Positions 413 through 13,013 of a DNA stretch of 20,895 nucleotides are shown here, piece after piece. Positions within the stretch are counted from its first letter, which is position 1, and each line of letters opens with the position of its first letter. The notes beneath the pieces are model-generated. The model saw only the letters and a list, made by a program, of their open reading frames with translations, did not search any database and had not been told where the DNA came from. This DNA comes from a virus, in the IMG/VR virus record IMGVR_UViG_3300047371_000072, positions 1-20,895 of that record. The stretch is one strand, 5' to 3'. A program made the translations under genes and the position numbers.

Positions 413-685
413 TTATGCTAAGTCTTTGTCATGGTTTAGTCCGCCTTTCTTCTTCTTGACGATGAAAGCGTTAACCCTTGCCATTCCCCATTGTTGTGGT
501 GTGGTGCCTGGGCGGTGACCCGTTTTCCATGCAGCAACCCCTCTATTATATACTTTACGCAAAGTGTCCGATGATATACCAGACTTCTTTGCTTTCGCCG
601 CGATACCATCTGGACCTTCATCAAGGTCTAGGGTATCATACATTCCATATCTCTTTTCACTGAGATACTGTTTAAAATTTATCAT
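413..685 (-). CDS. Small protein with capsid-targeting-like N-terminus (DUF5824-like)
   Basis: This 90-residue basic protein starts MINFKQYLSE-K, which fits the T4 capsid-targeting/prohead-protease consensus (M-x-x-[FY]-x-x-[FY]-[LIV]-x-E, cut after E10). Residues 30-80 include GISSDTLRKVYNRG, AAWKTGHRPGTTPQQW and ARVNAF, a pattern I recall from a small conserved family in T4-like cyanophages (DUF5824-like; from memory, not searched). No catalytic motif is visible. GGAG lies 7 nt before the ATG, and the start overlaps the stop of the upstream nucleotidyltransferase gene as ATGA. It is the last of five consecutive genes with this type of N-terminus. Probably an internal head protein; its biochemical role is unknown. 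Confidence 0.82.
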   Translation of the reverse strand: MINFKQYLSEKRYGMYDTLDLDEGPDGIAAKAKKSGISSDTLRKVYNRGVAAWKTGHRPGTTPQQWGMARVNAFIVKKKKGGLNHDKDLA

Positions 686-2376
686 GCTAAATCTCCGATC
701 ATTTGCGCAAGTGCTTTGCGATCCATGTCCAGTCCAAATTTACGAATTGCATTCGCGGCATGGAATTCATGAGACCTTCCGTCACCGGACTTCTTCAATT
801 CTTTTTTGATATATTGTGCAACTTTAGTGTATTTATTCTTATTAACAGTCTTGGCTCCGATCTTATGCATTAAATCAGTTACCCAGTTTTCTAGTATATC
901 ATTTTCTTCTGCAACACAATTAGGGACCATCTTATTCCCTTTCTTCTTCATACCAACTTCTTTGTAACCATCCCAACAATCTTCATCGTACATGTCTTTA
1001 AATGACTTGGTGTACTTGGATGGTTTAGTCTTAGCGGTCTTATCTCCAGGCGCTGGTTTGTATGCAGACTCATCATCGTCTGCCTTCTTACCATGTTTCT
1101 TGAAGTGTGCATCACGTTTGACCTTGGTCGACTTTTCTAGTCCCTTATGGTAACGCGATGGTTGAGTACCTTCACGATCCTTTATATCTGGGTCCTGTGA
1201 CTCGTACTTGATTTCAGGACTCGATGTCTTGAAGTCTTTCTTACGCATGATAGTTTTGTTCACTACTTCGAACTCACCGTTCTTATAGTTCACCACAACA
1301 GGGAGATTTAGATCGGACTGCATATCTTTCAATACTGCTTCCGCATCTCCGTGTTTCTTTACGTCTTTGCCCTTATTCTTTGCGATCTTCTTAAACAACC
1401 GTTGGAGTTCTGTGACCTTGATAGCAGGGTCATTTCTCTTATCGTTCATACGGTCTGCGAAGTGTCGTGTAAATTCGATGTCAATGTTGAACTTCTTCAA
1501 CAAACGGTCACCGAACTTTTCTAAATCATTGAGCTGTCCTTGGGTCACGTCTTCGGAGATCAACTCCACAGACTCTAACCACTTTCGCATTTTCTTACCA
1601 TCGTTAGTTTCAACGATGACATAGTTTGCACCTAGGATGGATACAGTAGCAATCTCATCACTTTCTTTGATCACTACTGTATCACCAACCCCAAACAGTT
1701 CGCCCGAAACATATTGTTCACGGGTTTCTGATACTGTTTCTAGTTCTAAGTGATTACGGAATTCGTTGGCCTCCTTCAGACCCATACCCGTACGCACGTC
1801 ATTGAATAATTTACGTGTGTCTGGGTTAGACATTGATGTAGGAACCCCCTGTGAGAATGCAACAAAATCATTCTTTGATGCATTCTCTCGTTGCTTAGAG
1901 GCAGACATACCTTCAACTCCAACAGAATCCGGATCTCTCTTACCTGCGGATACTATATTGATAGATTTGAAATTATAAAAACCATGTCTTGCTTTAGTAC
2001 CATTGTATTTCTTCAATAGTACTTCGAATTCTGTAATTCTGTCGTCACCGACAACCATAGTTACTGACTTGTAACCTTGGTCATACAGTGCGACCATGGC
2101 GTTGATAGCGGTCTTTACCGACTTATCCACCATGATATTCCGTGCATGTTTCGGAAACATCTTACGAGTGTGTTTGATTTTATCGGAGTACGATAGCGGA
2201 TTCTTCTTTGCGTCCTGTGATTGTGACACAAATACTTTATAGTCTGATTTCCCAGACTTCATCGCTAGTGTATCCATTACCTTGCCGTGGCCAACCGTAG
2301 GTGGATTCATACGACCAAACGTGAAATATACTTCGCGTTCCTCTTCAACAAGGTATTGACTGAAATTTTTAATCAC
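682..2376 (-). CDS. Multidomain nucleotidyltransferase with capsid-targeting-like N-terminus
   Basis: This 564-residue protein has a GTG start (GTGA overlap with the upstream stop) and begins MIKNFSQYLVE-E, one residue longer than the usual capsid-targeting peptide. Residues 17-165 look like a cytidylyltransferase-type nucleotidyltransferase: FGRMNPPTVGH carries the TxGH motif (T27, G29, H30), VVGDDR lies at 109-113, and GMSASKQR (156-163) occupies the place of the ISTSxxR motif. Relatives transfer NMP groups, for example in NAD or lipid-precursor synthesis; the substrate here is unknown. Residues about 228-272 resemble a small SH3/KOW-like barrel. Residues 300-385 (RHFADRMNDKRN to KTIMRKKDF) form a second conserved block that I cannot assign. 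A polar linker with CWDGYKEVGMKKKG (467-480) and a helical C-terminal domain follow. It lies within a capsid-targeted operon. Confidence 0.85.
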   Translation of the reverse strand: MIKNFSQYLVEEEREVYFTFGRMNPPTVGHGKVMDTLAMKSGKSDYKVFVSQSQDAKKNPLSYSDKIKHTRKMFPKHARNIMVDKSVKTAINAMVALYDQGYKSVTMVVGDDRITEFEVLLKKYNGTKARHGFYNFKSINIVSAGKRDPDSVGVEGMSASKQRENASKNDFVAFSQGVPTSMSNPDTRKLFNDVRTGMGLKEANEFRNHLELETVSETREQYVSGELFGVGDTVVIKESDEIATVSILGANYVIVETNDGKKMRKWLESVELISEDVTQGQLNDLEKFGDRLLKKFNIDIEFTRHFADRMNDKRNDPAIKVTELQRLFKKIAKNKGKDVKKHGDAEAVLKDMQSDLNLPVVVNYKNGEFEVVNKTIMRKKDFKTSSPEIKYESQDPDIKDREGTQPSRYHKGLEKSTKVKRDAHFKKHGKKADDDESAYKPAPGDKTAKTKPSKYTKSFKDMYDEDCWDGYKEVGMKKKGNKMVPNCVAEENDILENWVTDLMHKIGAKTVNKNKYTKVAQYIKKELKKSGDGRSHEFHAANAIRKFGLDMDRKALAQMIGDLA

Positions 2377-2744
2377 TTCTTATCGCCGCCTTTATTCTTA
2401 CCTCTTTTGCGTTCGAGTTCCTGTTTACGAACTACCTTTACAAGTTTTTTTGCTTGGCGATCTATACGTGATTGTAGTGCGGGTCTGTCTAGTCTTTTCT
2501 CGATTTCTTTCTTACGAGCAATTGACATCTCCCCTTTGTCTTGACCCTTAGTCAATTTTGATACCATTGCATTACGTGCTTGTCTACGCGCACGTTTCTT
2601 TAGCGTGTCCATATTCGCGACCTTTCTTTCGGACCGCTTACGTGCAATGGCTATTTTTGCTTTATTCTTTTTCATTCGCATCGCTAGTTTACGACGCTGT
2701 GTCATATCGAGAACCTCTGACACAAATTGTTTAAATGACAACAT
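2373..2744 (-). CDS. Very basic internal-head-type protein with capsid-targeting-like N-terminus
   Basis: A protein of about 123 residues, extremely rich in Lys and Arg and predicted helical. I chose the second ATG (2744), not the ATG at 2750, because it gives MLSFKQFVSE-V, a 10-residue capsid-targeting consensus, and better spacing to AGAGGA; the longer form would add only Met-Thr. The following MTQRRKLAMRMKK and repeated basic helices contain no enzyme motif. This fits a nucleic-acid-binding, head-internal protein like the small basic internal proteins of T4, though with no recognisable sequence identity to them. The stop overlaps the next start as GTGA. It lies between a ligase-like gene and a nucleotidyltransferase gene. 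Confidence 0.82.
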   Translation of the reverse strand: MLSFKQFVSEVLDMTQRRKLAMRMKKNKAKIAIARKRSERKVANMDTLKKRARRQARNAMVSKLTKGQDKGEMSIARKKEIEKRLDRPALQSRIDRQAKKLVKVVRKQELERKRGKNKGGDKK

Positions 2745-2776
2745 AGTCATCTATTCCTCTATTGGTTTATTCCATA

Positions 2777-3997
2777 TTATCTACGGGCTGAATCCCAACC
2801 CTTTAATATATCGGATGAAAAGTTGTTGTATGAAAATTCCATACGGTCAACCAATTTCACCGCGTCACCACCAAGCGTATCAATTGCAACGTATCCTTCC
2901 TCACCAGTCACTTTGTAACCATTAGAAGTTTTCACGAAAGTATCAATCGATTTAAGTTTGTCCAAACTATTTATAAGTTTTAATTTGACCAATACAATCA
3001 TTTTTTGCAATTCAAACATTTTTACTAGGTTTGCTTTGTTCGTAGCAGAGAAAAACTCCATCTCATCCTTCATCTTAGCAATCCAAGTGTCTTTACCACG
3101 TTGAGATTTCTTACTTGCAATCTCTTTTGTGTAGTAAGCTTGTCTATTACTTATCAGTCCAGTAACATGCTTTCTTGAGTCTGGGAGTAAGGCTCCTGCA
3201 CGAACAAACGAGTTGTTGTAAGTCTCAATCGCCTGTGCAAGGTTCTGGTTATCTTCTAGCGCCTTCAGTGTTGTAGCAGATGTCTGTTTGAATAGACGAC
3301 CGATTTGTGTCAGTAGATCATTGACTGATTTGGTTTCGCGTTCACTCATCGTCGCATTGGTCACGTCGGTCAACATCGCATCTTGTGACCATACGTTTAC
3401 AGAATTGCGAAACTTCGATACGTCCACACCATATGTTGCTCGCATAGACTCAAATGTATCACCAGTGTATGTTGTGTGCCATACGATACCGATCTTAGCA
3501 GCACGTACTTCTTTCGCTTGGTCATAGGGTACCGCATATGCAATGGTGTTTGGATGAAACACACTGTACTTCTGACCATCGATGGTCTTGGTAGTCACAT
3601 CGCCACTACCAAACAAAAAGTCACCTTGTATGACGCCCTTGATTCCTAGGGATGGTAAATACTTGAGTGCGTCTTTCAACTTAGAGTTCAGATCACCTGA
3701 CGTATCCGCGTCGATGTCTGCGTCGGTCTTGTAGACCTTTGGGTTCTTGTTGAAAATACCTTTCTTGGCAACGAAGAACTTACCGTCAATAGGGTCTTCT
3801 CCACAAAAGATTGCGGGCGCACCGTCCCATTTGACAGATACATTGCCCGCACCCTTTCCCGCTAACATGTCTCGCAAACCACGTAACGCATTGATAGCTT
3901 CACGCGTACCAGAAACTCCACCGTACAGGACCTTGTCCTCGATGTGAGTCATGTGGGTGTTCTTCTGTTCCGTTATGAAGTTTGCGAAGTTTTCCAT
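2777..3997 (-). CDS. RNA/DNA ligase-like nucleotidyltransferase with capsid-targeting-like N-terminus
   Basis: This 406-residue protein starts MENFANFITE-Q, matching the capsid-targeting consensus. SVKWDGAPAIF at 54-64 contains the KxDG adenylation motif (K56, D58, G59) of the covalent nucleotidyltransferase superfamily of ligases and capping enzymes. Candidate later motifs are IQGDFLFG, IGIVWHTTY, then EGYVAI and VKLVDR near the C-terminus, in the places of motifs III to V. A gene of this type (a DUF-level family, from memory) is common in marine T4-like phages. The likely activity is AMP transfer to itself and then to an RNA or DNA 5' phosphate; substrate and activity are inferred. The start shares one base with the upstream stop (TAATG). 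If the first ten residues are removed in the head, the mature enzyme keeps all its motifs. Confidence 0.85.
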   Translation of the reverse strand: MENFANFITEQKNTHMTHIEDKVLYGGVSGTREAINALRGLRDMLAGKGAGNVSVKWDGAPAIFCGEDPIDGKFFVAKKGIFNKNPKVYKTDADIDADTSGDLNSKLKDALKYLPSLGIKGVIQGDFLFGSGDVTTKTIDGQKYSVFHPNTIAYAVPYDQAKEVRAAKIGIVWHTTYTGDTFESMRATYGVDVSKFRNSVNVWSQDAMLTDVTNATMSERETKSVNDLLTQIGRLFKQTSATTLKALEDNQNLAQAIETYNNSFVRAGALLPDSRKHVTGLISNRQAYYTKEIASKKSQRGKDTWIAKMKDEMEFFSATNKANLVKMFELQKMIVLVKLKLINSLDKLKSIDTFVKTSNGYKVTGEEGYVAIDTLGGDAVKLVDRMEFSYNNFSSDILKGWDSARR

Positions 3998-5283
3998 TAT
4001 GTACTCAATGAATTATATTTGACTGCTAAATTAAAAAATTGTCCCAGTTTCTTTTGGCCCGCGTTACCCGCTTTATTAGTTCGTATGGACATCTCCATAG
4101 TCACATTATCATCTTTCGACTTTAGTTCAATGAACCAATTCTGTTTTGATGTAGTAGATGGGTATGCACGAACAAACTTTACCATAGGCAAAAAGACGCC
4201 TAGTTCATCATTCGAAGTGATCTCTTCAAAACCGTCCTTTACTGCTTTAATAACCTTAGTAGGAACATCGGGTGCGTCTCTTAATATTTCTGTCCGGATA
4301 TAGTCTAAAGTCTTATCTTTATCCGTATTGAAGAGGTCGATGACAGCCTTACGGCATGTCTCCAAGTGTTTGTCGTACAGTTCCTCATATTTGGTACTGT
4401 CATCACGATTCAACTTTACTAGTAGTCCAGAAGTAACTCGTTTCTTGGATTTGTCATATGCACCACTAGGTGGCATACCTTGTATCTTAGAATAGACATC
4501 GGTGTGCAGTTGTCTGCGAAGGACACTTACATTACGTTGTTTCTTGAAGGACGTGAAGATAGGATTGACGTAGGTGTTGAGTTTAGGTTCTTTGGTCTTC
4601 TTACCACCCGCTTTGAGCGATACTCCCAACATTGCACCATCGGTAAACTCAATAAAGATATCGCCGGGATGGTTCTTAGGGACACCCGTAGGTTTTGCAC
4701 GATATCCCCAATAGACCTGTTTGATTGATTTGTTCTTGTTTTCTTCTTGCAGATACTTGTAGACACCCATCGCGTTCAACATCTTCTCAGTGAACTTGGA
4801 AGATTCAGACGCCTTCTGGATGGTATCGATTGCCGCTTGAGCATCGGACGGTTGAACACAGGTTAGAGTTTTAGGGTCCTGTTTCAATAGGTGATCATAG
4901 AAATCTTGTACACTGGTCGTCATCGTGTAACCCGTTTCCCACGCGATGGCAGGGAACAGTTCTGTAATAGATGCGTTTAGAGTGGTCTCACCTATACCAC
5001 CGGACTTAGGTTTTACCAGAATAACTACTTTGGTATCGAAACCAGAATCAATGAATATAGGGTCAACTGACTGCCCAGACTTCTCACGAACTTCTGCCTT
5101 GACACCCGCTTGGTTTAGATCACGAGCGATCTCATCCCTGTCCGTGAGACGGTCTTCTGACCGAACAACAAATACTGTGGTCTTACTGTTTTCGGATTTT
5201 TTCTCAACAGGAAGGTCCCCGAATACGTCCGGAAAATCGGACACACCGACCTCTTCTGATAAGAAGGCTTTAAAAGTTTTCAT
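3997..5283 (-). CDS. Capsid-targeted protein, possibly PD-(D/E)XK-fold nuclease
   Basis: This 428-residue protein starts MKTFKAFLSE-E, almost the T4 internal-protein leader MKTYQEFIAE. It is the first gene after an overlapping early/late promoter, and AGGGA lies 6 nt before the ATG. No family is recognised with certainty. Three segments recall a restriction-endonuclease-like fold: an acidic helix with LNASITELFPAIAWETGY (102-119), PGDIFIEFTDG (206-216, D208) and VSLKAG (221-226, K224). The expected Asp or Glu two positions before the Lys is a Ser, so catalysis is doubtful and the assignment is tentative. Residues 35-70 resemble a small alpha/beta repeat. It heads the five-gene capsid-targeted operon, with a one-base TAATG overlap to the ligase-like gene. 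Confidence 0.8.
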   Translation of the reverse strand: MKTFKAFLSEEVGVSDFPDVFGDLPVEKKSENSKTTVFVVRSEDRLTDRDEIARDLNQAGVKAEVREKSGQSVDPIFIDSGFDTKVVILVKPKSGGIGETTLNASITELFPAIAWETGYTMTTSVQDFYDHLLKQDPKTLTCVQPSDAQAAIDTIQKASESSKFTEKMLNAMGVYKYLQEENKNKSIKQVYWGYRAKPTGVPKNHPGDIFIEFTDGAMLGVSLKAGGKKTKEPKLNTYVNPIFTSFKKQRNVSVLRRQLHTDVYSKIQGMPPSGAYDKSKKRVTSGLLVKLNRDDSTKYEELYDKHLETCRKAVIDLFNTDKDKTLDYIRTEILRDAPDVPTKVIKAVKDGFEEITSNDELGVFLPMVKFVRAYPSTTSKQNWFIELKSKDDNVTMEMSIRTNKAGNAGQKKLGQFFNLAVKYNSLST

Positions 5284-5312: not shown

Positions 5313-5341
5313 AGTATACTTTTATTCTATTTATATGTCAA
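5313..5341 (-). promoter_or_regulatory. Sigma70-type early promoter overlapping a late promoter
   Basis: On the minus strand TTGACA (5341-5336), a 17-bp spacer, and TATACT (5318-5313) form a strong sigma70-type promoter, with a predicted start near 5306, ahead of the gene beginning at 5283. Its -35 box lies inside the end of the exonuclease gene, and its spacer contains the TATAAATA late element. Confidence 0.7.
5328..5335 (-). promoter_or_regulatory. T4-type late promoter (TATAAATA)
   Basis: An exact TATAAATA on the minus strand, the -10 consensus read by the T4 gp55 late sigma factor, with a predicted start about 6-7 nt further left. The exonuclease stop codon TAA is part of it. It would transcribe the five capsid-targeted genes. 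Confidence 0.7.
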
Positions 5342-6399: not shown

Positions 6400-6475
6400 T
6401 GGTGGAGTTAGAGGGAATCGAACCCACGACCTTCTGGATGCAAACCAGACGCTCTCCCTACTGAGCTATAACCCC
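6400..6475 (-). tRNA. tRNA-Ala (UGC)
   Basis: A 76-nt cloverleaf: acceptor GGGGTTA/TAACTCC, D-arm AGCTCAG, anticodon loop TTTGCAT (anticodon TGC) closed by TCTGG/CCAGA, T-loop GGTTCGATTCC, and an encoded CCA. Confidence 0.96.
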
Positions 6476-6491
6476 TAAATCTTACCTTCCT

Positions 6492-6499
6492 TATTTATA
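6492..6499 (-). promoter_or_regulatory. Possible T4-type late promoter (TATAAATA)
   Basis: An exact TATAAATA on the minus strand between tRNA-Gly and tRNA-Ala, 17 nt before tRNA-Ala. It could drive late synthesis of tRNA-Ala, the structured RNA and the 43-residue membrane protein. The AT-rich spacer makes chance occurrence possible. Confidence 0.5.
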
Positions 6500-6512
6500 T
6501 ATCTATCTAATT

Positions 6513-6588
6513 TGGAGCGGATAGTCGGGTTCGAACCGACGACCTCGACGTTGGCAACGTTGTGCTCTACCAGCTGAGCTATATCCGC
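6513..6588 (-). tRNA. tRNA-Gly (GCC)
   Basis: A 76-nt cloverleaf: acceptor GCGGATA/TATCCGC, discriminator T, encoded CCA, anticodon loop TTGCCAA (anticodon GCC). The anticodon stem CAACG/CGTCG has one A-C mismatch (28:42). It starts 8 nt after the cytochrome c peroxidase stop. Confidence 0.94.
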
Positions 6589-6596
6589 AGTTTTCA

Positions 6597-8012
6597 TTAA
6601 TCGCATCCTAATTCGGAACGTGAGTCATCATCATTATTAGTGACACACAGACCACTTGGTAGCTCTGTCGGTACATATCGCATCAACTCAGGATCGTATA
6701 GACTTGTCTCTAAGAATGTAACTAGGTTAGAGATTTCCTCTTCAGTCAAGTCAAGTGGTGTGAATCGATAGTCTAGGTCACTAACCTCTACATCTGGGTT
6801 TTGAGGAGTTGCCGCAACTTTATATCGTACGACCTCTTCTACACTAGTAAATGATGCGCCATGGCCAAATACAGTAGTATCTATAAGGTTGTAAAGTGGC
6901 GGTACTTTGAACGCATACTTCTCCATATCGTCACCCGTAAATCCGGATCGACCTTCTCTTACACCATCCGGCACTTCACCAATAATGTCGTCCCACATGT
7001 CTAGGTCATGGAATCCAAGTGTCATGAATACTTCGGTTGCCATAGAACCAACGGGTGATGACAGGGCGGGTCCATTATGACAACCAGCGCAGTTACCTTT
7101 ACCAAAGAACACTTTTGCACCTTCAACTTCTTCTATTGTCAGTGCATCTTCATTACCGCGTAAGAATTCTTGGAATGGTGCGCGGTTTGCAAGGATAGTC
7201 CTCTCGTATGCGGCAATCGCGAGTGCGGCAGCTTCTAACATATCGTGCGGTTGCGATGTGCCATATGCCGCTTCGAACATCATCTGATACTTCTCATTGG
7301 TGGTAAGTATAGAACCTTCTTCCACATTCATTCGGTGAACGCCTAGACCCGCGACTGCCTGTGTCTCAAGACCAGACAACCCTCTTAGGTTGGCTTCCTT
7401 CGGAGTACCTTCCGTGAAGTGACGATCTGGGTCAATACCTATGTTCACAATACCACCAACTTCATTACCGAACTGACCATTCCAAAGCATAACTTCTTGG
7501 TAGGCAGTATTCAGTACTGTAGGTGATGTTACTGGTTGCACATCAGCATCTTCTGGATTAATTCCTTCAGCAAGCATACGATGATTGAATCCGATACCAC
7601 CTTCACCGATACCCTGACGAATACCAGACTTGAATCCATTCTGACCATTGTGGCAAGATGCACATGACCATGTATTCTCCAAGTCTGTCTTATTAGTTTC
7701 GGTAGATGTGATTCCCGTCTCATGATAAATGAACTTGCCCAACTCCACCTTTTCGGCAGTGATTGGGTTACTGGGGTCTTGGGGGATGTTTAGGAAGTCG
7801 TCACTCTCAGGTAGCAGGTATCCTTCATAAGAACCTGTAGGTGACGTGGTTCCCATAATTTCTTTAAGTTCTCCGATAGAGACTTCAAGTGCTGTCGGTT
7901 CTGGTGCGGGTAGAGGTGCCACCGCCACTGGCTCTGGTGCGGAATCCGAAGTGCCACCCGAACAGGCGCTAAGGACGGTCGTGCATAATACTACAGATAG
8001 TAGGTTTTTCAT
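6597..8012 (-). CDS. Di-heme cytochrome c peroxidase / MauG-family lipoprotein
   Basis: This 471-residue protein is counted from the ATG at 8012; a TTG at 8030 would add six residues without benefit. MKNLLSVVLCTTVLSAC is a lipoprotein signal peptide with lipobox LSAC (C17), followed by a Pro/Ala-rich linker, so the enzyme should be anchored facing the periplasm. Two heme-binding CxxCH motifs, CASCH (117-121) and CAGCH (308-312), lie about 190 residues apart, as in bacterial cytochrome c peroxidases. Family segments such as AAYERTILANRAPF, KVPPLYNLIDT and FGHGASF are also present. Relatives reduce hydrogen peroxide with electrons from a small cytochrome c, or oxidise protein and metabolite substrates. 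A strong early promoter lies upstream and tRNA-Gly follows. A host-derived metabolic gene of this kind is unusual in a phage; the separately encoded cytochrome c at 12608-12919 is a plausible partner. Confidence 0.92.
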   Translation of the reverse strand: MKNLLSVVLCTTVLSACSGGTSDSAPEPVAVAPLPAPEPTALEVSIGELKEIMGTTSPTGSYEGYLLPESDDFLNIPQDPSNPITAEKVELGKFIYHETGITSTETNKTDLENTWSCASCHNGQNGFKSGIRQGIGEGGIGFNHRMLAEGINPEDADVQPVTSPTVLNTAYQEVMLWNGQFGNEVGGIVNIGIDPDRHFTEGTPKEANLRGLSGLETQAVAGLGVHRMNVEEGSILTTNEKYQMMFEAAYGTSQPHDMLEAAALAIAAYERTILANRAPFQEFLRGNEDALTIEEVEGAKVFFGKGNCAGCHNGPALSSPVGSMATEVFMTLGFHDLDMWDDIIGEVPDGVREGRSGFTGDDMEKYAFKVPPLYNLIDTTVFGHGASFTSVEEVVRYKVAATPQNPDVEVSDLDYRFTPLDLTEEEISNLVTFLETSLYDPELMRYVPTELPSGLCVTNNDDDSRSELGCD

Positions 8013-8054
8013 AATATAAGAGCCTCTCAAATACTCTTTTCAATTTAGAAAGGA

Positions 8055-8084
8055 ATTATACTATAAGATATGAGGACTTGTCAA
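8055..8084 (-). promoter_or_regulatory. Sigma70 early promoter
   Basis: TTGACA (8084-8079), an 18-bp spacer and TATAAT (8060-8055) on the minus strand, with a predicted start near 8048, about 36 nt before the cytochrome c peroxidase ATG. Confidence 0.8.
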
Positions 8085-8094
8085 GGGTAAATGG

Positions 8095-8781
8095 TTATTT
8101 ATTTTTAACTCGTTTGGTCGCCTGCTTCTCTGCATCAATCCACTTCTGTGCCTTCTTAGAGACAGGTTTGTCAGTGAACTTCTTAGCATCACGGAATGCA
8201 GTTAGAGTTTCTTTCTCGTAGTCTTTACCTTCAGAGTTATCTACAACCAAGAAGTTAGGTTTACCAAACATACGTTGGAACTTACCGATATTGCGTTGTA
8301 CTGCTTTCCAATACTCAGTAACACCTTTCTCGCCTAGGGTACGAGCACGTTTTGCATCACGGCTGATAGCAGTATCAAGGTCTGTGTTTACGAAAATCAT
8401 TGCGACATCGTAACCCATGGCCTTTACTTTCTTTGCCTGTTCAGCAATTTTATCTGGGTCTTTACCAGTACCATCTACTACGAGACCAAGACGACCTTTC
8501 AGATAACGCTCTTCCCTTTTCCCTGTAAGCTTCTTTGCCTTACCACGGAGTTCTTGTCCTTTCGGAGAGAAGATGTTGTCCGGAGTCATATCCATATCAA
8601 CCTTCTTCATAGCAGCTTCGAATGCGTCATCTGAGTTGACAACCTTGTAACCCATAGAAGTCAGACCTGTCTTACCGACGATGAATGACTTACCAGAACC
8701 TGGCCCACCCGCAAGAAAGATTGCCTTGAAGATTGCTGGATCGTTTACGCCTTCGTCTAAGAATGTTTTAAAAGATTTCAT
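8095..8781 (-). CDS. P-loop kinase (zeta-toxin/AAA_33-like) with capsid-targeting-like N-terminus
   Basis: This 228-residue protein is counted from the ATG at 8781, giving MKSFKTFLDE-G, a clear capsid-targeting consensus. A longer frame from 8823 would cross the late promoter and is rejected. Walker A GGPGSGKS lies at 25-32. VVNSDDAFEAA, then VVDGTGKDPDKI and a lid-like segment with RDAKRARTLGEKG, follow the small-molecule/polynucleotide kinase plan (AAA_33 or zeta-toxin related). The likely reaction is ATP-dependent phosphorylation of a nucleic-acid end, nucleotide or sugar; the substrate is not evident. The C-terminus is Lys-rich. No good SD precedes the ATG. The gene stands alone between a late promoter and the peroxidase promoter, so it is probably made late and packaged. 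Confidence 0.87.
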   Translation of the reverse strand: MKSFKTFLDEGVNDPAIFKAIFLAGGPGSGKSFIVGKTGLTSMGYKVVNSDDAFEAAMKKVDMDMTPDNIFSPKGQELRGKAKKLTGKREERYLKGRLGLVVDGTGKDPDKIAEQAKKVKAMGYDVAMIFVNTDLDTAISRDAKRARTLGEKGVTEYWKAVQRNIGKFQRMFGKPNFLVVDNSEGKDYEKETLTAFRDAKKFTDKPVSKKAQKWIDAEKQATKRVKNK

Positions 8782-8812
8782 TGTAATAGTATCTGTTGAT
8801 GGTAGTTGTATG

Positions 8813-8820
8813 TATTTATA
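8813..8820 (-). promoter_or_regulatory. T4-type late promoter (TATAAATA)
   Basis: An exact TATAAATA on the minus strand, 31 nt before the ATG of the kinase and just after a T7 run following tRNA-Ser. Its only downstream gene before the next promoter is the capsid-targeted kinase. Confidence 0.72.
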
Positions 8821-8828
8821 CAAAAAAA

Positions 8829-8919
8829 TGGCCGAGGGATAGGGATTCGAACCCTAGATACGCTATTAACGTATGCCAGTTTTCAAGACTGGTGCATTCA
8901 ACCGCTCTGCCATCCCTCG
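8829..8919 (-). tRNA. tRNA-Ser (UGA)
   Basis: A 91-nt class II tRNA: acceptor CGAGGGA/TCCCTCG, anticodon loop CTTGAAA (anticodon TGA) closed by CCAGT/ACTGG, long variable arm ATACG...CGTAT, discriminator G, encoded CCA followed by a T run. Confidence 0.95.
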
Positions 8920-8936
8920 TTAATTTTTATACTTTC

Positions 8937-9013
<77 letters not shown>

Positions 9014-9023
9014 GTAGAAAAGT

Positions 9024-9098
9024 TGGCTGGGGTGGAAGGATTCGAACCTACGAATGACGGGATCAAAACCCGTTGCCTTACCACTTGGCGACACCCCA
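9024..9098 (-). tRNA. tRNA-Gln (UUG)
   Basis: A 75-nt cloverleaf: acceptor TGGGGTG/CACCCCA, anticodon loop TTTTGAT (anticodon TTG) closed by ACGGG/CCCGT, discriminator G, encoded CCA. Confidence 0.96.
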
Positions 9099-9165
9099 AA
9101 CCTGTTTGCTCTACTGGGCACCACTCATTCAGTTATTTGTAAAGGGGAATGAGACCCTTATTCTT

Positions 9166-9242
9166 TGGTCGGGAATGTAGGATTTGAACCTACGACCCTT
9201 CGCTCCCAAAGCGAATGCGCTACCAGACTGCGCTAATCCCCG
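9166..9242 (-). tRNA. tRNA-Pro (UGG)
   Basis: A 77-nt cloverleaf: acceptor CGGGGAT/ATTCCCG, anticodon loop TTTGGGA (anticodon TGG) closed by TTCGC/GCGAA, discriminator A, encoded CCA. Confidence 0.96.
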
Positions 9243-9321
9243 TAATAAAGGAGCAGTTTTCCACTTACTCAGGTGACGGGCGTAACGACCAGTGCAAGTT
9301 TAAAGTCATTCCGAGACTAAA

Positions 9322-9405
9322 TGGTGGGGAGAGGTGGATTCGAACCACCGAAGCTTTCGCGTCAGATTTACAGTCTGATCCCTTTGGCCGCTCGGGAACC
9401 TCCCC
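9322..9405 (-). tRNA. tRNA-Tyr (GUA)
   Basis: An 84-nt class II tRNA: acceptor GGGGAGG/TCTCCCC, anticodon loop CTGTAAA (anticodon GTA) closed by TCAGA/TCTGA, variable arm of about 13 nt, discriminator A, encoded CCA. Confidence 0.95.
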
Positions 9406-9410
9406 GATAT

Positions 9411-9623
9411 TTAGCCGAGGATAATCTCCTCTCTTTTCTTCTTAGCGGGTTGACGAATACCAAGATAAGTTTCGAGAATCTCGATCTCCTTGTCCTTACG
9501 CTTCTGCCACTGTTGCTCAGTTCGAGCAACCCCTTTCTTGTTGTTCTTCTCAAAGAACTTTGACTCTGTGAGTCTCTCTAGTGCGCCTTCACGGCGACGG
9601 CGATCTTCTGCCTTACCTCTCAT
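9411..9623 (-). CDS. Small highly charged protein inside the tRNA cluster
   Basis: A 70-residue frame with a very good SD (AAAGGA, 6 nt before the ATG at 9623), ending 5 nt before tRNA-Tyr. The product is almost entirely charged and probably helical: RRRREGALERL at 8-18, then KKGVARTEQQWQKRKDKEIE. No Cys and no membrane segment. The middle block resembles a short conserved protein I recall from marine T4-like phages, without a known function. Lodged between tRNA-Asp and tRNA-Tyr, it must be co-transcribed with them. A nucleic-acid-binding role would fit the charge but is only inferred. Confidence 0.75.
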   Translation of the reverse strand: MRGKAEDRRRREGALERLTESKFFEKNNKKGVARTEQQWQKRKDKEIEILETYLGIRQPAKKKREEIILG

Positions 9624-9644
9624 AAACTATCCTTTTTATAAAGT

Positions 9645-9721
9645 TGGCGGAGCGGACGGGACTCGAACCCGCGACCCCCGGCGTGACAGGCCGGTATTCT
9701 AACCAACTGAACTACCGCTCC
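9645..9721 (-). tRNA. tRNA-Asp (GUC)
   Basis: A 77-nt cloverleaf: acceptor GGAGCGG/CCGCTCC, anticodon loop CTGTCAC (anticodon GTC) closed by CCGGC/GCCGG, discriminator G, encoded CCA. Confidence 0.96.
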
Positions 9722-9726
9722 AATAA

Positions 9727-10104
9727 TTATGGTTTCAATCCTTTTTTACCTTGGTGGTATCTTCCCCAGATACAGTGAGCAACTTCATGCCCAATCAACT
9801 CTGGTTCCCATTGCCACTCAGGGTCTTTAATATAAATTGTACACTCACCCGTTGACGGAATCCATAGAGCAAACGCACTCACCGAATCCCACTTTACACC
9901 TAACTTTTTCTTACGAACATGATCGTACTCAGCTTGGTTCTTCAACAAAATAAAATTAACCTTTGGGCTTAGATTCTCATATTCCTTTACAAGGAACTTA
10001 AAGTCATCTGCACCATAGCGATATGTGTTAGTTACACCGCTTGAAGCACAACCGCCTAAAACTAAACTAACTATTATCGTGAACGTGTAACTGAATAAGC
10101 GCAT
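9727..10104 (-). CDS. Small lipoprotein with HExxH zinc-protease-like motif
   Basis: A 125-residue protein with a lipoprotein signal, MRLFSYTFTIIVSLVLGGC (lipobox LGGC, C19), so it should be attached to a membrane facing the periplasm. Near the C-terminus HEVAHCIWGRYH (106-117) gives H106, E107 and H110 plus G114 and H117. This resembles the metzincin HExxHxxGxxH pattern but has one extra residue. At this size it is a minimal zincin-like protein; peptidase activity is possible, the target unknown. Its start lies inside the upstream DUF3310-like gene (38-bp overlap), which implies co-expression. A late lysis or cell-envelope role is as plausible as a superinfection role; I cannot choose between them. 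Confidence 0.82.
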   Translation of the reverse strand: MRLFSYTFTIIVSLVLGGCASSGVTNTYRYGADDFKFLVKEYENLSPKVNFILLKNQAEYDHVRKKKLGVKWDSVSAFALWIPSTGECTIYIKDPEWQWEPELIGHEVAHCIWGRYHQGKKGLKP

Positions 10105-10441
10105 AATGCAAAACCTTCATTAAATCTTTACGCGCATCGTTATCGGTTCCTTTCTTACCGTAACGTTGCGCATACTTTAAAACATTACCGATACAGAACC
10201 CTGTACCATGACCGCCGTCAACAATAAATTCAGTCGCCTGAAACTTGTCTTTGGCATAGTGCTGATTGTATGTGGCATCGATATATTGCTTGAACTCATC
10301 AATCAACTTACCTTCACTAAACTTATAGTCCACAGTACTAATATCAGCAGCTTCTCGCATTGTTACACCATTCGAGTATCTCTCAAACTCTACCGTCTCA
10401 TTAGTATAAGGTGGAGTGTGTGCATAAATCGTTTTACTCAT
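10067..10441 (-). CDS. DUF3310-like phage protein (nucleotide-kinase-associated family)
   Basis: A 124-residue protein with a C-terminal signature typical of the family: ATEFIVDGGHGTGFCIGN (69-86), then KYAQRYGKKG, a DARKDL helix and KVLHYAL. DUF3310 proteins are common in phages; to my recollection the T7 gp1.7 nucleotide kinase contains such a region, but this protein has no P-loop. Residues 1-65 are less conserved, with a helical stretch at KLIDEFKQYIDATY. One base separates the start from the upstream membrane-protein stop, and the end overlaps the HExxH lipoprotein gene. Expected to be cytoplasmic and early, perhaps in nucleotide metabolism. Confidence 0.82.
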   Translation of the reverse strand: MSKTIYAHTPPYTNETVEFERYSNGVTMREAADISTVDYKFSEGKLIDEFKQYIDATYNQHYAKDKFQATEFIVDGGHGTGFCIGNVLKYAQRYGKKGTDNDARKDLMKVLHYALIQLHVHDNS

Positions 10442-10442
10442 A

Positions 10443-10730
10443 TTACCATTCTCTCAATATAGTTGTGCCTAACATAAACAAGGAAACCGCATTTAGCATA
10501 ATCAATGCGCGATCCTTCCAAATAACTGATACCCAAGTCCATAGTATGATGCCTACGAACCCGATTGTCAAGTCATACATGCGATAATCTGGTCCGGCAG
10601 ATCGCATCGCCATTGAAATTAAAATCAAAATAGAAGCGACCCACTTGAGATACCAATCAAAGTTTTCAGGGTACCACGAACGATCCGGCTTAGTTCGACC
10701 GTCTGCTCTTACTTGAGGATCTCCGTTCAT
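10443..10730 (-). CDS. Small membrane protein with three predicted spans
   Basis: A 95-residue protein with a polar N-terminus (MNGDPQVRADGRTKPDRSW) and three hydrophobic segments at roughly residues 29-45, 52-70 and 73-91, joined by short loops such as WKDRALIM. Similar short membrane proteins occur in other marine T4-like phages; no function is known to me. The start overlaps the upstream cupin stop as ATGA, and the stop lies one base before the DUF3310-like start, so the four genes from 11080 to 9727 form one operon. Confidence 0.82.
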   Translation of the reverse strand: MNGDPQVRADGRTKPDRSWYPENFDWYLKWVASILILISMAMRSAGPDYRMYDLTIGFVGIILWTWVSVIWKDRALIMLNAVSLFMLGTTILREW

Positions 10731-11080
10731 GACTTACTCCCTATGGTTCGACGGACGATGTCGTTGTGGTTAAACTCTGCCCAATATAACTCGAATGCAA
10801 CTCCGTCTTTGAGACCTTCGAACTGGTGAATCTTGCCTGGCTTGACTTGAGTGAACTCTCCCGCACGTAGAATGGTCTCATCGACAAGACCGTCTTGGTC
10901 ATCTTGCCATACGCGCACGATCATCTCACCGGACTCTACGAAGAAACCGTTCCACTTATATTCATGGAGATGTTCGGAACACTTGAAACCTTTCTTGTAT
11001 TCGATACGATGAAACTCTAGAACGCCATTCGCATGAATGAGTTCTGTCTGTCCCCAAATCTTTCCTGCCTTCATAGTCAT
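10727..11080 (-). CDS. Single-domain cupin protein
   Basis: A 117-residue beta-barrel protein with both cupin motifs. SEHLHEYKWNGFFVESGEM supplies the first (His, His and Glu metal ligands before a Gly), and PGKIHQFEG supplies the second. Small cupins bind a metal and act as isomerases, dioxygenases or sensors; the substrate is not visible here. GAGAG precedes the ATG; a second ATG two codons later is an alternative start. It is the first protein gene after tRNA-Asn and tRNA-Leu and probably shares their consensus sigma70 promoter, with expression early in infection. Confidence 0.87.
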   Translation of the reverse strand: MTMKAGKIWGQTELIHANGVLEFHRIEYKKGFKCSEHLHEYKWNGFFVESGEMIVRVWQDDQDGLVDETILRAGEFTQVKPGKIHQFEGLKDGVAFELYWAEFNHNDIVRRTIGSKS

Positions 11081-11104
11081 ACTACTCTCACTGGATCATA
11101 ATAA

Positions 11105-11191
11105 TTTGGTGCGAAAGGAGAGACTCGAACTCTCACGCCGTGAAGCACTGGTACCTAAAACCAGCGTGTCTACCAATTCCACCACTCTCGC
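11105..11191 (-). tRNA. tRNA-Leu (UAG)
   Basis: An 87-nt class II tRNA: acceptor GCGAGAG/CTTTCGC, anticodon loop TTTAGGT (anticodon TAG) closed by CTGGT/ACCAG, variable arm, discriminator A, encoded CCA. Only 4 nt separate it from tRNA-Asn. Confidence 0.95.
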
Positions 11192-11195
11192 ATAT

Positions 11196-11271
11196 TGGCT
11201 GGCAAGGCAGGGCTCGAACCTGCGACCAGATGATTAACAGTCATCGGCTCTACCAACTGAGCTACTTGCCA
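11196..11271 (-). tRNA. tRNA-Asn (GUU)
   Basis: A 76-nt cloverleaf: acceptor TGGCAAG/CTTGCCA, anticodon loop CTGTTAA (anticodon GTT) closed by GATGA/TCATC, discriminator G, encoded CCA. The predicted transcription start lies only about 7 nt upstream. Confidence 0.96.
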
Positions 11272-11284
11272 AAATTATGTGCAT

Positions 11285-11313
11285 ATTATATCAAAAAATA
11301 AGAGGACTGTCAA
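11285..11313 (-). promoter_or_regulatory. Consensus sigma70 early promoter for tRNA-Asn/tRNA-Leu
   Basis: TTGACA (11313-11308), a 17-bp spacer and TATAAT (11290-11285) on the minus strand, with a predicted start near 11278. The -35 box overlaps the last codons of the upstream HExxH gene. Confidence 0.87.
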
Positions 11314-11687
11314 GTGTCCAAATCGTCTAAATTGACAACCCCTTCATGGAGCCACTTCTCTTCTAAAGGGGTCAGTTTTTCGTTCTCATACTGACGCGCC
11401 TCTATTTCATCAGGATGATTATGATATCCCTTAATAAGATTGAGAAGGACATATCGCAAATAAAACATGACAACACCCCTCTTTTTTATTTGATAACAGT
11501 GTTGCAACTCATGTCGATATAATTTAACAAGAGATCGCCGTGTCATTAATTCTGATTGTGCTACTGACCCTGTAGCATACTTACGTGGACGCATGATCAT
11601 ATATGGCCATAACACTACACCACGAAAACGAGACCTCCAAGGAAATATAGACTCGCTCTCATTTTTGTACACAATTTTAAACTTCAT
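11310..11687 (-). CDS. Minimal HExxH metallopeptidase-like protein
   Basis: A 125-residue basic protein with RHELQHCYQ (58-66), a zinc-binding HExxH (H59, E60, H63), and about 30 residues later HPDEIEARQYE (91-101), whose Glu could be the third ligand as in gluzincins. A hydrophobic helix, GVVMFYLRYVLLNLI (71-85), lies between the two. There is no signal peptide. The layout recalls very small M48/SprT- or DUF4157-like zincins; I cannot decide which, and peptidase activity is unproven. Its start overlaps the 39-residue membrane protein gene by 11 bp, suggesting coupled translation. A second, unrelated mini-HExxH protein lies at 9727-10104. Confidence 0.83.
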   Translation of the reverse strand: MKFKIVYKNESESIFPWRSRFRGVVLWPYMIMRPRKYATGSVAQSELMTRRSLVKLYRHELQHCYQIKKRGVVMFYLRYVLLNLIKGYHNHPDEIEARQYENEKLTPLEEKWLHEGVVNLDDLDT

Positions 11688-11796
11688 CTTTACCCCACCG
11701 TCTTAGTGTCTCTTTATGTATAGTTTTGTGACAGTAGTACATCGTAATACCGCCAAATACCATAGGGCACAAAAAGACCGCAAGAATACCCAACAT
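11677..11796 (-). CDS. 39-residue membrane protein
   Basis: A short frame starting at an ATG at 11796, just after the stop of the preceding gene and running 11 bp into the next one. The product MLGILAVFLCPMVFGGITMY has one predicted span over residues 2-20, followed by a basic tail (CHKTIHKETLRRWGKDEV). The SD is weak (GAG 7 nt upstream), so it may depend on translational coupling. The tight fit between neighbours and the coherent membrane-plus-tail design support a real gene. No family recognised. Confidence 0.6.
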   Translation of the reverse strand: MLGILAVFLCPMVFGGITMYYCHKTIHKETLRRWGKDEV

Positions 11797-11804
11797 TCCT
11801 ACAC

Positions 11805-12017
11805 TCAAGCGTTTGCCCGTTCCACCATCTCTTCATGGGTGACTTTGCGTTTCGCTAATTCGTTACGGAACTTTTGTTTCAACTTAGGTGTGCGGCATGA
11901 TAAAAACTCATTCCACAACGATTCCGTCGAAAGGTTCTTTACATAGAAACGTGATGTCGTGACCTTTAATGTCATACGATCTTTCACGATACTATCTTCT
12001 TTGTACTTAATTGGCAT
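11805..12017 (-). CDS. Small conserved phage protein
   Basis: A 70-residue basic protein with a strong SD (GAGGTAA, 4-5 nt before the ATG). Segments such as VKNLSTESLWNEF and LKQKFRNELAKRKV resemble a short family I recall from marine T4-like phages, usually left unnamed. No Cys, no membrane segment, no catalytic motif. It starts 7 nt after the previous stop in a run of six genes leading from tRNA-Glu towards tRNA-Asn. Confidence 0.8.
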   Translation of the reverse strand: MPIKYKEDSIVKDRMTLKVTTSRFYVKNLSTESLWNEFLSCRTPKLKQKFRNELAKRKVTHEEMVERANA

Positions 12018-12024
12018 TGTTACC

Positions 12025-12252
12025 TCACAGCTTTAATATAGGGACCACAACATTTTCACCCTGTGGTTCGTCTTCTTCTTTTCCACCGCACCAAGAACAT
12101 TCTTCTCCTCGTGCGACATATATGTAACCGTCATGCATACAACTATGTGGCCACATCACGGTCTTTGCGTTTTCATAAAAACACTCGTTAAAAGTGTCAT
12201 CCCACTCTGAGTTACCTGTTTTAGAAATAGGCGACTCCGCAATCTCAATCAC
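12025..12252 (-). CDS. Small acidic protein with possible zinc-binding cysteines
   Basis: A 75-residue protein from a GTG start that overlaps the upstream stop (GTGA), with AAGG just before it. It is acidic and contains C24, HSCMH (36-40) and CSWCGGKE (52-59). The CxxC and the Cys/His pair could form a small zinc ribbon or knuckle. No family recognised. It sits between a membrane protein and a small conserved protein in the tRNA-Glu/cytochrome operon. Confidence 0.72.
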   Translation of the reverse strand: MIEIAESPISKTGNSEWDDTFNECFYENAKTVMWPHSCMHDGYIYVARGEECSWCGGKEEDEPQGENVVVPILKL

Positions 12253-12584
12253 CCTTCGTTCTCCAGATCCCAGAGACTCCTTCGATCCTTAGGCAATATA
12301 TTATCACGCTTGACCCACAAGTGTCCATTCTTCTCAGCATCGCTGAATATAGCAACGGTAATGAAGAATGCACCAAGCACTGCAAGGTGACCACCCACAC
12401 TATAAATGCCATACTTCCACGTGTAACCTGCCCAGAAAGTGAACACTACTGACCACATCACTGACAAGTAAAACATGAGAATAAACTGTACAAGTTCATT
12501 CGGAATGTGTCTCAGTGGATTGACCTTCAAATCAAAGAAAAATCTATAAAAATCATAAATTGCAAATCCGACACTCTTAAACAT
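12249..12584 (-). CDS. Membrane protein of unknown function
   Basis: A 111-residue protein with a good SD (AGAGGA, then 8 nt, then ATG). Hydrophobic segments lie near residues 31-55 (LVQFILMFYLSVMWSVVFTF) and 62-82 (VGGHLAVLGAFFITVAIF). An aromatic-rich N-terminus and a charged C-terminal tail (DRRSLWDLENEG) flank two spans. It directly follows the cytochrome c gene, so it might serve as a membrane partner, but no heme or metal ligands are visible to support that. No family recognised. Confidence 0.8.
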   Translation of the reverse strand: MFKSVGFAIYDFYRFFFDLKVNPLRHIPNELVQFILMFYLSVMWSVVFTFWAGYTWKYGIYSVGGHLAVLGAFFITVAIFSDAEKNGHLWVKRDNILPKDRRSLWDLENEG

Positions 12585-12607
12585 TTCACTATTCCTCTAT
12601 AAATTGT

Positions 12608-12919
12608 CTACTTTGATGGTAGACCTTCCTGAACGAAAACACCAAGCGTACCGATCTGTCCTTCAGACAAAGCTTTTGCTTGACTCCACATAAGACCAGA
12701 CAATGGGCCGCGAGTCTCACCATTCCTATATGATAAGAGAGCGTCGATAATATAATCAGCGTTCTTTCCTACTAATGCGGGAAACGAACCCATACCCTGA
12801 CCTTCTGTTCCATGACAACCTGCACAAACCATCCATATACCACGAACATCTTCAAATCGATCTTCGTCTGCACATACTGGTGCGCTGATTAGTAACATTG
12901 ATAATAATAAGTTTTTCAT
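12608..12919 (-). CDS. Periplasmic class I cytochrome c
   Basis: A 103-residue protein counted from the ATG at 12919, which has AAGGA at ideal spacing; an ATG at 12937 would add six residues. MKNLLLSMLLISAPVCA is a cleavable signal peptide (cut before DED). The mature part, of about 86 residues, has CAGCH (32-36) for covalent heme and Met77 in PLSGLMWSQAKALSEGQI as the likely sixth ligand, the usual small c5/c553-type arrangement. It should carry single electrons in the periplasm, maturing through the host cytochrome c machinery. It follows tRNA-Glu under an early promoter. It is the natural electron donor candidate for the phage-encoded di-heme peroxidase, though the two genes lie about 4.6 kb apart. 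Confidence 0.9.
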   Translation of the reverse strand: MKNLLLSMLLISAPVCADEDRFEDVRGIWMVCAGCHGTEGQGMGSFPALVGKNADYIIDALLSYRNGETRGPLSGLMWSQAKALSEGQIGTLGVFVQEGLPSK

Positions 12920-12938
12920 AACTATTCCTTTAGTCATA

Positions 12939-13013
12939 TGGTATCCCGTAGGGGACTCGAACCCCTGTTACCGCCGTGAAAGGGCGGTGTCCTAACCTCT
13001 AGACGAACGGGAC
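12939..13013 (-). tRNA. tRNA-Glu (UUC)
   Basis: A 75-nt cloverleaf: acceptor GTCCCGT/ACGGGAT, anticodon loop CTTTCAC (anticodon TTC) closed by CCGCC/GGCGG, discriminator A, encoded CCA. Its first bases belong to an inverted repeat with the promoter spacer. Confidence 0.96.

Follow-up and report, generated by a model that had tools for sequence, protein, structure and literature searches.

Why do neighbouring genes of a marine T4-like virus, whose products are otherwise largely unlike, begin with nearly the same ten residues? The question is raised by five adjacent minus-strand genes at positions 413-5283 of IMG/VR virus record IMGVR_UViG_3300047371_000072, of which positions 1 to 20,895 were analysed (20,895 nucleotides, called the window here). 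A preliminary description of this DNA had noticed the five N-termini and compared them with MKTYQEFIAE of the T4 internal proteins; all five are present, one (the gene starting at 2376) with an extra residue, and the comparison held, as T4 IPII and IPIII fit the motif too. We defined the tag motif as M-x(1-3)-[FY]-x-x-[FY]-[LIVM]-x-E and called it strict when all fixed positions fit. The description had seen no such peptide on the early-region genes that it could read to their start; one is present on a sixth, kinase-like gene outside the operon (8095-8781, Table 1). Within the operon the genes are joined by 1- or 4-base overlaps or by a 32-base gap (2744/2777). Judged from sequence comparison, the six peptides are probably T4-type capsid-targeting sequences on a late-expressed cargo cassette.

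The motif is confined to N-termini. In the window it is matched by 6 of 39 called open reading frames (ORFs), that is, by 7 of 105 start codons in the N-terminal zone (N-zone; one ORF matches at two starts) and by 0 of 265 internal start codons. The window together with eight complete phage genomes gave 32/4298 N-zone and 3/13780 internal start codons (Fisher 3.0e-17), and the eight genomes with the window left out gave 25/4193 and 3/13515 (p = 3.3e-13). A motif search of N-termini across relatives, which the preliminary description had proposed, was made in 80 viral contig loci holding a DUF6267 gene (992 kb, 1,429 ORFs), where the motif stood at 232 of 3571 N-zone and 0 of 12043 internal start codons. 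The motif-bearing ORFs, 225 in number, were spread over 18 of 385 protein clusters, and the cluster count is the weightier of the two because the loci share ancestry, itself a point against our reading, and were found by six scan patterns. By family, the strict motif was carried by 68 of 80 DUF6267 proteins (a count that is biased, and to that extent speaks against us, because one of the six patterns covered this tag), 51 of 73 cytidylyltransferases, 39 of 45 DUF5824 proteins, 11 of 11 kinases and 5 of 5 members of the 428-aa family.

Such a pattern might be an artefact, in that Lys/Phe-rich N-termini could be usual in phage start regions and detection in virions could be carry-over of abundant late proteins. 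Many proteins in the 80 loci do start M-[KR]-x-F, as this explanation would have it, but the last position is specific: when it was left open, the 80 loci gave 286 N-zone matches, 232 of them with E, and 35 internal matches, none with E (in the eight genomes E took 22/47 and 3/54, respectively). Moreover, amino acids are conserved while synonymous codons vary freely. The fixed residues of the DUF6267 tag, compared over 57 distinct examples, were written with TTT (33) or TTC (24), GAA (38) or GAG (19) and all three Ile codons; therefore, it is the protein sequence of the tag that is conserved, and F4 and E10 are invariant across 42 aligned DUF6267 proteins. We regard the artefact as very improbable; its carry-over part is taken up with the virion data below.

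The tag is also a portable module, as some homologues without it start at the domain itself. The untagged DUF6267 proteins of S-SZBM1 and P-HM2 begin MAKNTHLEHLED and MSKNTHLEHLED, keep the domain, and have starts that correspond to the window residues just after the tag (KNTHLEHLED). Of 16 close relatives aligned with the 428-aa protein, 15 show [FY]-[LI]-x-E at the start (L163 has M for the second aromatic), and four distant aligned relatives, as well as that of ACG-2014b, have different N-termini without the tag. The slot 5' of the DUF6267 gene is variable, holding 20 protein clusters (some cut by contig ends), four of which carry the strict tag (clusters 38, 44, 14 and 57). That the slot proteins are diverged copies of one nuclease was rejected: in hhalign against the 428-aa family all other clusters scored at most 14% probability, and cluster 44, the family itself, scored 100 as a control. 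For the best of these others, cluster 38, the alignment was confined to residues 1-15, which is the tag, and for cluster 14 it spanned 26 residues (4.6%).

Late expression is suggested by promoter-like sequences. The window contains four copies of the octamer TATAAATA, which we take to be the core of T4 late promoters, where 1.21 would be expected and 3 shuffles in 100 gave at least as many. Two of these copies stand upstream of the tagged units, one before each, at 44 and 31 bp. Similarly, for 16/16 orthologues of the operon's leading gene NATAAATA lies in the 120 nt upstream, where it begins 34 to 54 nt before the start; of the other plus-strand ORFs in these loci, 7/146 have it. A wider rule, with TATAAATA marking tagged genes in general, was rejected, since it was not significant outside the window's group (p = 0.13).

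Further, in related phages the tag is associated with occurrence in virions, as seen for one proteome and for one protein family; what we report of published virion studies refers to the tables and text sections cited. We built a weight matrix on peptides of the window, C48C1, Melnitz-3 and DLP_6, with no cyanophage peptides, and applied it to S-CREM2, for which Table 3 of PMC10665884 gives 52 virion proteins out of 219 coding sequences. The four top-scoring proteins of the 219 were gp154 (cytidylyltransferase, MKNFSSFLTE/A, the slash marking the predicted cut), gp136 (MQTFSMFFSE/D), gp14 (kinase, MKRFDAFLTE/E) and gp6 (SAM hydrolase, MKDFDSFLEE/F), and all four are in that virion list. At score 6 or 8 the counts were 4 of 52 detected and 0 of 167 other proteins (p = 0.003), and at score 10 they were 2 and 0 (p = 0.056). 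Two further S-CREM2 virion proteins, gp13 (MKDLHSFLTE/Q) and the Cas9-like gp12 (RFASFMAE/AA, residues 18-25), have related peptides that were picked by eye and stood outside the test. Carry-over would not favour tagged proteins, which argues against the artefact.

Of the T4-like phages for which a virion report of the cytidylyltransferase was found (S-CREM2, S-SZBM1, S-SCSM1 and S-SM1), 4 of 4 have this protein tagged, always with A after the Glu. For S-SCSM1, PMC9602691 counts the nicotinamide mononucleotide adenylyltransferase (NMNAT; ORF91) among the virion proteins, and the matching ORF at 88819-90048, which we infer to be ORF91, starts MKSFLQFLKE/A. In S-SM1 the cytidylyltransferase T4-GC190 was detected in virions (PMC3037559), and the sole match in its genome starts MKKFSAFLNE/A. 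The same source gives no detection of the S-PM2 cytidylyltransferase, whose ORF continues from a DUF6267-like part and starts without a tag, in agreement with our reading; the untagged DUF6267 protein of S-SZBM1 is likewise absent from the 30 virion proteins listed in Table 1 of PMC9146016. Among the five operon families, virion evidence was found for the cytidylyltransferase, in relatives; for the other four families and for this phage itself we found none. In the portions of the cyanophage virion papers cited here (PMC10665884, PMC9146016, PMC9602691, PMC3037559) we found no targeting signal named, and in the main text of PMC10665884 no words beginning "targeting" or "cleav".

Several observations weigh against capsid targeting as the meaning of the tag. 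In S-SZBM1 four proteins scored above threshold, and of these the tagged gp140 alone was detected (p = 0.45); missing from its list are gp34, which has no plain tag, and the strongly tagged gp191 (105 aa) and gp192 (165 aa). The S-CREM1 cytidylyltransferase is tagged (MKRYTNFLSE/A) and is not named in the text consulted (PMC9964418) among 14 virion proteins, four of them structural and the other ten either lacking a known function or unmatched. In S-CBWM1, which is not T4-like, the NMNAT is virion-reported and the ORF that matches it is untagged, which also favours the artefact, as does the fact that the authors of two virion studies themselves offer carry-over as an alternative. The cytidylyltransferase of P-HM2 has no tag, the nearest Melnitz kinase starts MKTFAELQEG, which is not strict, and just 10 of 69 members of the (mixed) basic-protein cluster have the strict motif. 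HTVC008M has 0 strict matches among 204 ORFs, with shortened forms at some cargo genes only. In nine other genomes TATAAATA is not enriched before tagged genes (3/25, compared with 103/2068; p = 0.13). T4 IPI did not turn up in the motif scan; its start was not looked up. The residues after the Glu are K, E, V, Q, E and G in the window, without the T4-type alanine, and A follows in 6 of 120 distinct tags of the 80 loci, where Q, G, E, S and K are commoner. Lastly, the UvsW helicase of C48C1 matches the motif at its annotated start. We take this match as chance, because an in-frame start lies 16 codons upstream and the UvsW N-terminus of S-CREM2 lacks the motif; a general trait of cytoplasmic proteins was rejected as an explanation, this UvsW-like helicase being the sole annotated replication protein among the C48C1 matches.

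Some of these points would suit a different function, in which the tag is a docking helix for another late partner (scaffold, portal, packaging motor or replication machinery) and the proteins act at the head as it assembles and do not travel to a next host. The shortened forms of HTVC008M, the residues after the Glu that differ from T4's, and the tagged gp191, gp192 and S-CREM1 cytidylyltransferase that are missing from the virion lists or text cited would fit this. However, a tagged SAM hydrolase, kinase and cytidylyltransferase stand in the S-CREM2 virion list, and T4 IPII and IPIII, which are annotated internal virion proteins, share the motif, so that we hold docking to be improbable and keep to capsid targeting. 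As for cleavage, the window tags contain an L/I/V-x-E site, the N-termini of capsid proteins hold FLTE (C48C1), ILTE (S-SZBM1) and LLTE (S-CREM2), and all three phages have an annotated prohead or head maturation protease.

What the cargo might be was approached from domains and predicted folds, for which sequence-only searches of solved structures gave no useful matches for four queries, and PADLOC and NCBIfam gave weak matches only for the six tagged proteins. The 428-aa protein matches no Pfam family. In an alignment of 21 sequences its D208, S222 and K224 are invariant, and residues 91-426 of its model (mean predicted local distance difference test, pLDDT, 80.7) are weakly like HinP1I (Z 7.1, root-mean-square deviation (rmsd) 5.1, 211 residues), which is in the range of common arrangements; the highest-scoring structures (Z up to 8.1) cover residues 7-95 only and are nucleotidyltransferases. 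Perhaps it is a restriction-endonuclease-like protein of PD-(D/E)XK type, for which D...[DESQ]-x-K would be the catalytic pattern, and a candidate nuclease. The DUF6267 protein has K56-x-D-G, the form of ligase motif I, with K56, D58 and G59 invariant; its model (mean pLDDT 73) has RNA ligases as best fold matches (Z ~6) among unrelated helical proteins, headed weakly by T4 RNA ligase 2 (Z 6.3, rmsd 4.4, 173 residues), and no Foldseek match at E <= 0.001. This model would perhaps fit an ATP-dependent ligase-like nucleotidyltransferase. The cytidylyltransferase-like protein scores 22.2 bits for CTP_transf_like, above the curated cut-off of 21. Thus, of the enzyme labels in the preliminary description, nucleotidyltransferase is borne out by Pfam, and for nuclease- and ligase-like the evidence from folds and motifs is weak. 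The bodies of the proteins, which it had called unrelated, are not entirely so: residues 406-465 of the cytidylyltransferase resemble the first part of DUF5824 (20.2 bits, under the curated cut-off of 25) and the 90-aa protein resembles the last part. Three PHROGs profiles each align to two window proteins, phrog_455 (DUF6267 and cytidylyltransferase), phrog_3041 (cytidylyltransferase and DUF5824) and phrog_23027 (the basic protein and the middle of the cytidylyltransferase), which suggests natural fusions and a shared role. We count the kinase-like gene in the same cargo set because its HTVC008M relative sits between the DUF6267 and cytidylyltransferase genes.

Another possibility is that the proteins are packaged and yet serve a structural or DNA-condensing purpose in the head, with no work in a new host. 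The 123-aa protein, which is basic and has no Pfam match, would suit a DNA-condensing internal protein, and S-SZBM1 gp136 and gp139, close to gp140, are also in the virion list cited. But catalytic-looking residues are conserved in the ligase-like and nuclease-like proteins, and a slot as variable as that 5' of DUF6267 is unusual for structural parts. We judge a purely structural role to be unlikely, if a little less so than docking, and prefer a cargo of enzymes.

Table 1. Tagged genes and promoter matches in the window (the slash marks the predicted cut after Glu).
Feature	Position	Strand	Tag or distance	Family or profile
428-aa protein	3997..5283	-	MKTFKAFLSE/E at 5254-5283	phrog_2496
406-aa DUF6267 protein	2777..3997	-	MENFANFITE/Q at 3968-3997	Pfam PF19782, E 1.3e-104
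123-aa basic protein	2373..2744	-	MLSFKQFVSE/V at 2715-2744	phrog_23027, E 3.4e-8
564-aa cytidylyltransferase/NMNAT-like protein	682..2376	-	MIKNFSQYLVE/E at 2344-2376 (GTG start)	Pfam CTP_transf_like, phrog_3041/395
90-aa DUF5824 protein	413..685	-	MINFKQYLSE/K at 656-685	Pfam PF19141, E 1.6e-19
228-aa P-loop kinase-like protein	8095..8781	-	MKSFKTFLDE/G at 8752-8781	AAA_33/Zeta_toxin
T4-type late promoter match TATAAATA	5328..5335	-	44 bp from first tagged gene (5283)	
Second TATAAATA match	8813..8820	-	31 bp from sixth tagged gene (8781)	

Two starts in Table 1 were chosen among alternatives. The basic-protein ORF has an in-frame ATG also at 2750 (MTMLSF...), two codons before 2744, and 2744 was adopted. 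The longest ORF of the sixth tagged gene opens with TTG at 8823, and the inner ATG (8781) is the likelier start because this TTG lies above the promoter match at 8813-8820. Around the same gene are eleven transfer RNA (tRNA) genes (minus strand, 6400-13013). The window also holds, at 6597-8030 (minus strand), a gene for a lipoprotein-like MauG/MbnH-type di-haem enzyme, with scores below the NCBIfam cut-offs, and C48C1 has a gene with a similar start at the corresponding place (57990-59411); a small ORF with a CxxCH motif lies at 12608-12937.

Tagged genes of other loci gave observations of their own. A module of ~36 residues (L-x-L-x-x-x-G-x-G-x-[YW], recognized by eye) is common to Cas9-like, kinase and cytidylyltransferase proteins, in which it follows the tag; the genes lie at L086:7704-12846 (S-CREM2 gp12 and gp14), L147:1261-2424 (S-SM1), L138:8819-10048 (S-SCSM1) and L207:1501-2634 (S-CREM1). 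A hidden Markov model from four of these modules found a second copy in gp14 and matched no window protein. The tagged L067:16824-17540 weakly matches RNA 2'-phosphotransferase (E 0.031, below the cut-off), and at L185:8515-9794 tandem P-loop kinase-like genes follow a DUF6267-like gene, the first with the variant tag MKTFKHFYFE.

Taken together, the shared tag and the tagged enzymes in purified particles of related phages indicate that the phage probably brings finished proteins with it when it infects a cell. We propose that the tagged genes would be read late from the TATAAATA promoter, that the N-terminal tag would take each product into the prohead scaffold core, and that a gp21-type prohead protease would cut after the tag Glu and probably also at the FLTE, ILTE or LLTE of the capsid proteins. 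The mature cargo, namely nuclease-, ligase-, kinase- and NMNAT/cytidylyltransferase-like enzymes plus a basic protein, would remain inside the head, interspersed with the DNA, pass with it into the next host, and act in the first minutes of infection, ahead of phage gene expression. Its task would be to counter first-response defence by repairing or protecting nucleic acids and pools of nucleotides. The preliminary description had already proposed a head-packaged cargo; of this, capsid targeting is well supported by the motif in T4 IPII and IPIII, its spread over many proteins, its conservation, the L/I-x-E ending that capsid-protein N-termini of relatives also have, and the S-CREM2 virions, and the later steps are graded as follows. 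Packaging in the head of this phage, as predicted from the tag, is quite likely. Cleavage after the Glu appears probable, at odds held down by following residues unlike those of T4, and we lean towards injection into the new host, slightly less firmly. A role in repair or counter-defence is a tentative suggestion, more likely wrong than right. More doubtful still is a specific version, an injected nucleic-acid and nicotinamide adenine dinucleotide (NAD) repair kit (nuclease, RNA-ligase-like protein, end-processing kinase and NMNAT-like protein) that would, minutes after entry, reverse what host defence had done (cleaved tRNA or DNA, depleted NAD), with exchangeable tags and cargo swapped by recombination behind a fixed tag.

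If the proposal is true, a ten-residue tag would allow one to predict from genome sequence which proteins marine T4-like phages inject, and would also yield anti-defence candidates among proteins of unknown function. The tag is, further, a candidate mechanism for the enzymes seen in cyanophage virions, a result so far open to carry-over. Neither an enzyme-like tagged cassette with a variable neighbour slot nor any literature on capsid targeting in marine T4-like phages was among the matches listed, which is no proof of absence.

Capsid targeting by such a peptide is already known from T4, and the targeting sequence of its internal proteins was reportedly described by Mullaney and Black in 1996. 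The window tags share their N-terminal pattern with IPII and IPIII. Unlike these (100 and 193 aa), the window proteins reach 564 aa, are enzyme-like and lie in one cassette, and the residue after the Glu is seldom A in the window group; cleavage here is a prediction. T4 Alt, an ADP-ribosyltransferase, is a packaged enzyme that is injected and cut by gp21. Resembling it, the tagged protein L054:6998-7909 of a related locus weakly matches phrog_832, the Alt-type RNA polymerase ADP-ribosylase (E 0.0068), whereas the window proteins had no phrog_832 match in the PHROGs scan. According to the part of a review available (PMC3012670), the T4 internal proteins are a diverse set in which the targeting sequence alone is conserved. 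In our T4 scan the motif lay near the N-terminus of 3 of 276 ORFs, IPII, IPIII and gene 61.1. The last of these (54 aa, hypothetical; NC_000866 18966-19130, L202:267-431) starts MKTFKEFIKE, from which its product is possibly an unrecognised packaged protein, and it adjoins 61.2, called adfA, a DarT inhibitor, in the section of PMC9391042 consulted. The Dar proteins of P1 are similar in being packaged and defence-related, with an N-terminal capsid signal in DarB, and differ from the window set in having no consensus N-terminus, as far as the cited text goes (PMC9024508). Also close in kind are the virion-associated enzymes of cyanophages, which include the same cytidylyltransferase/NMNAT family, tagged in the four T4-like phages named above.

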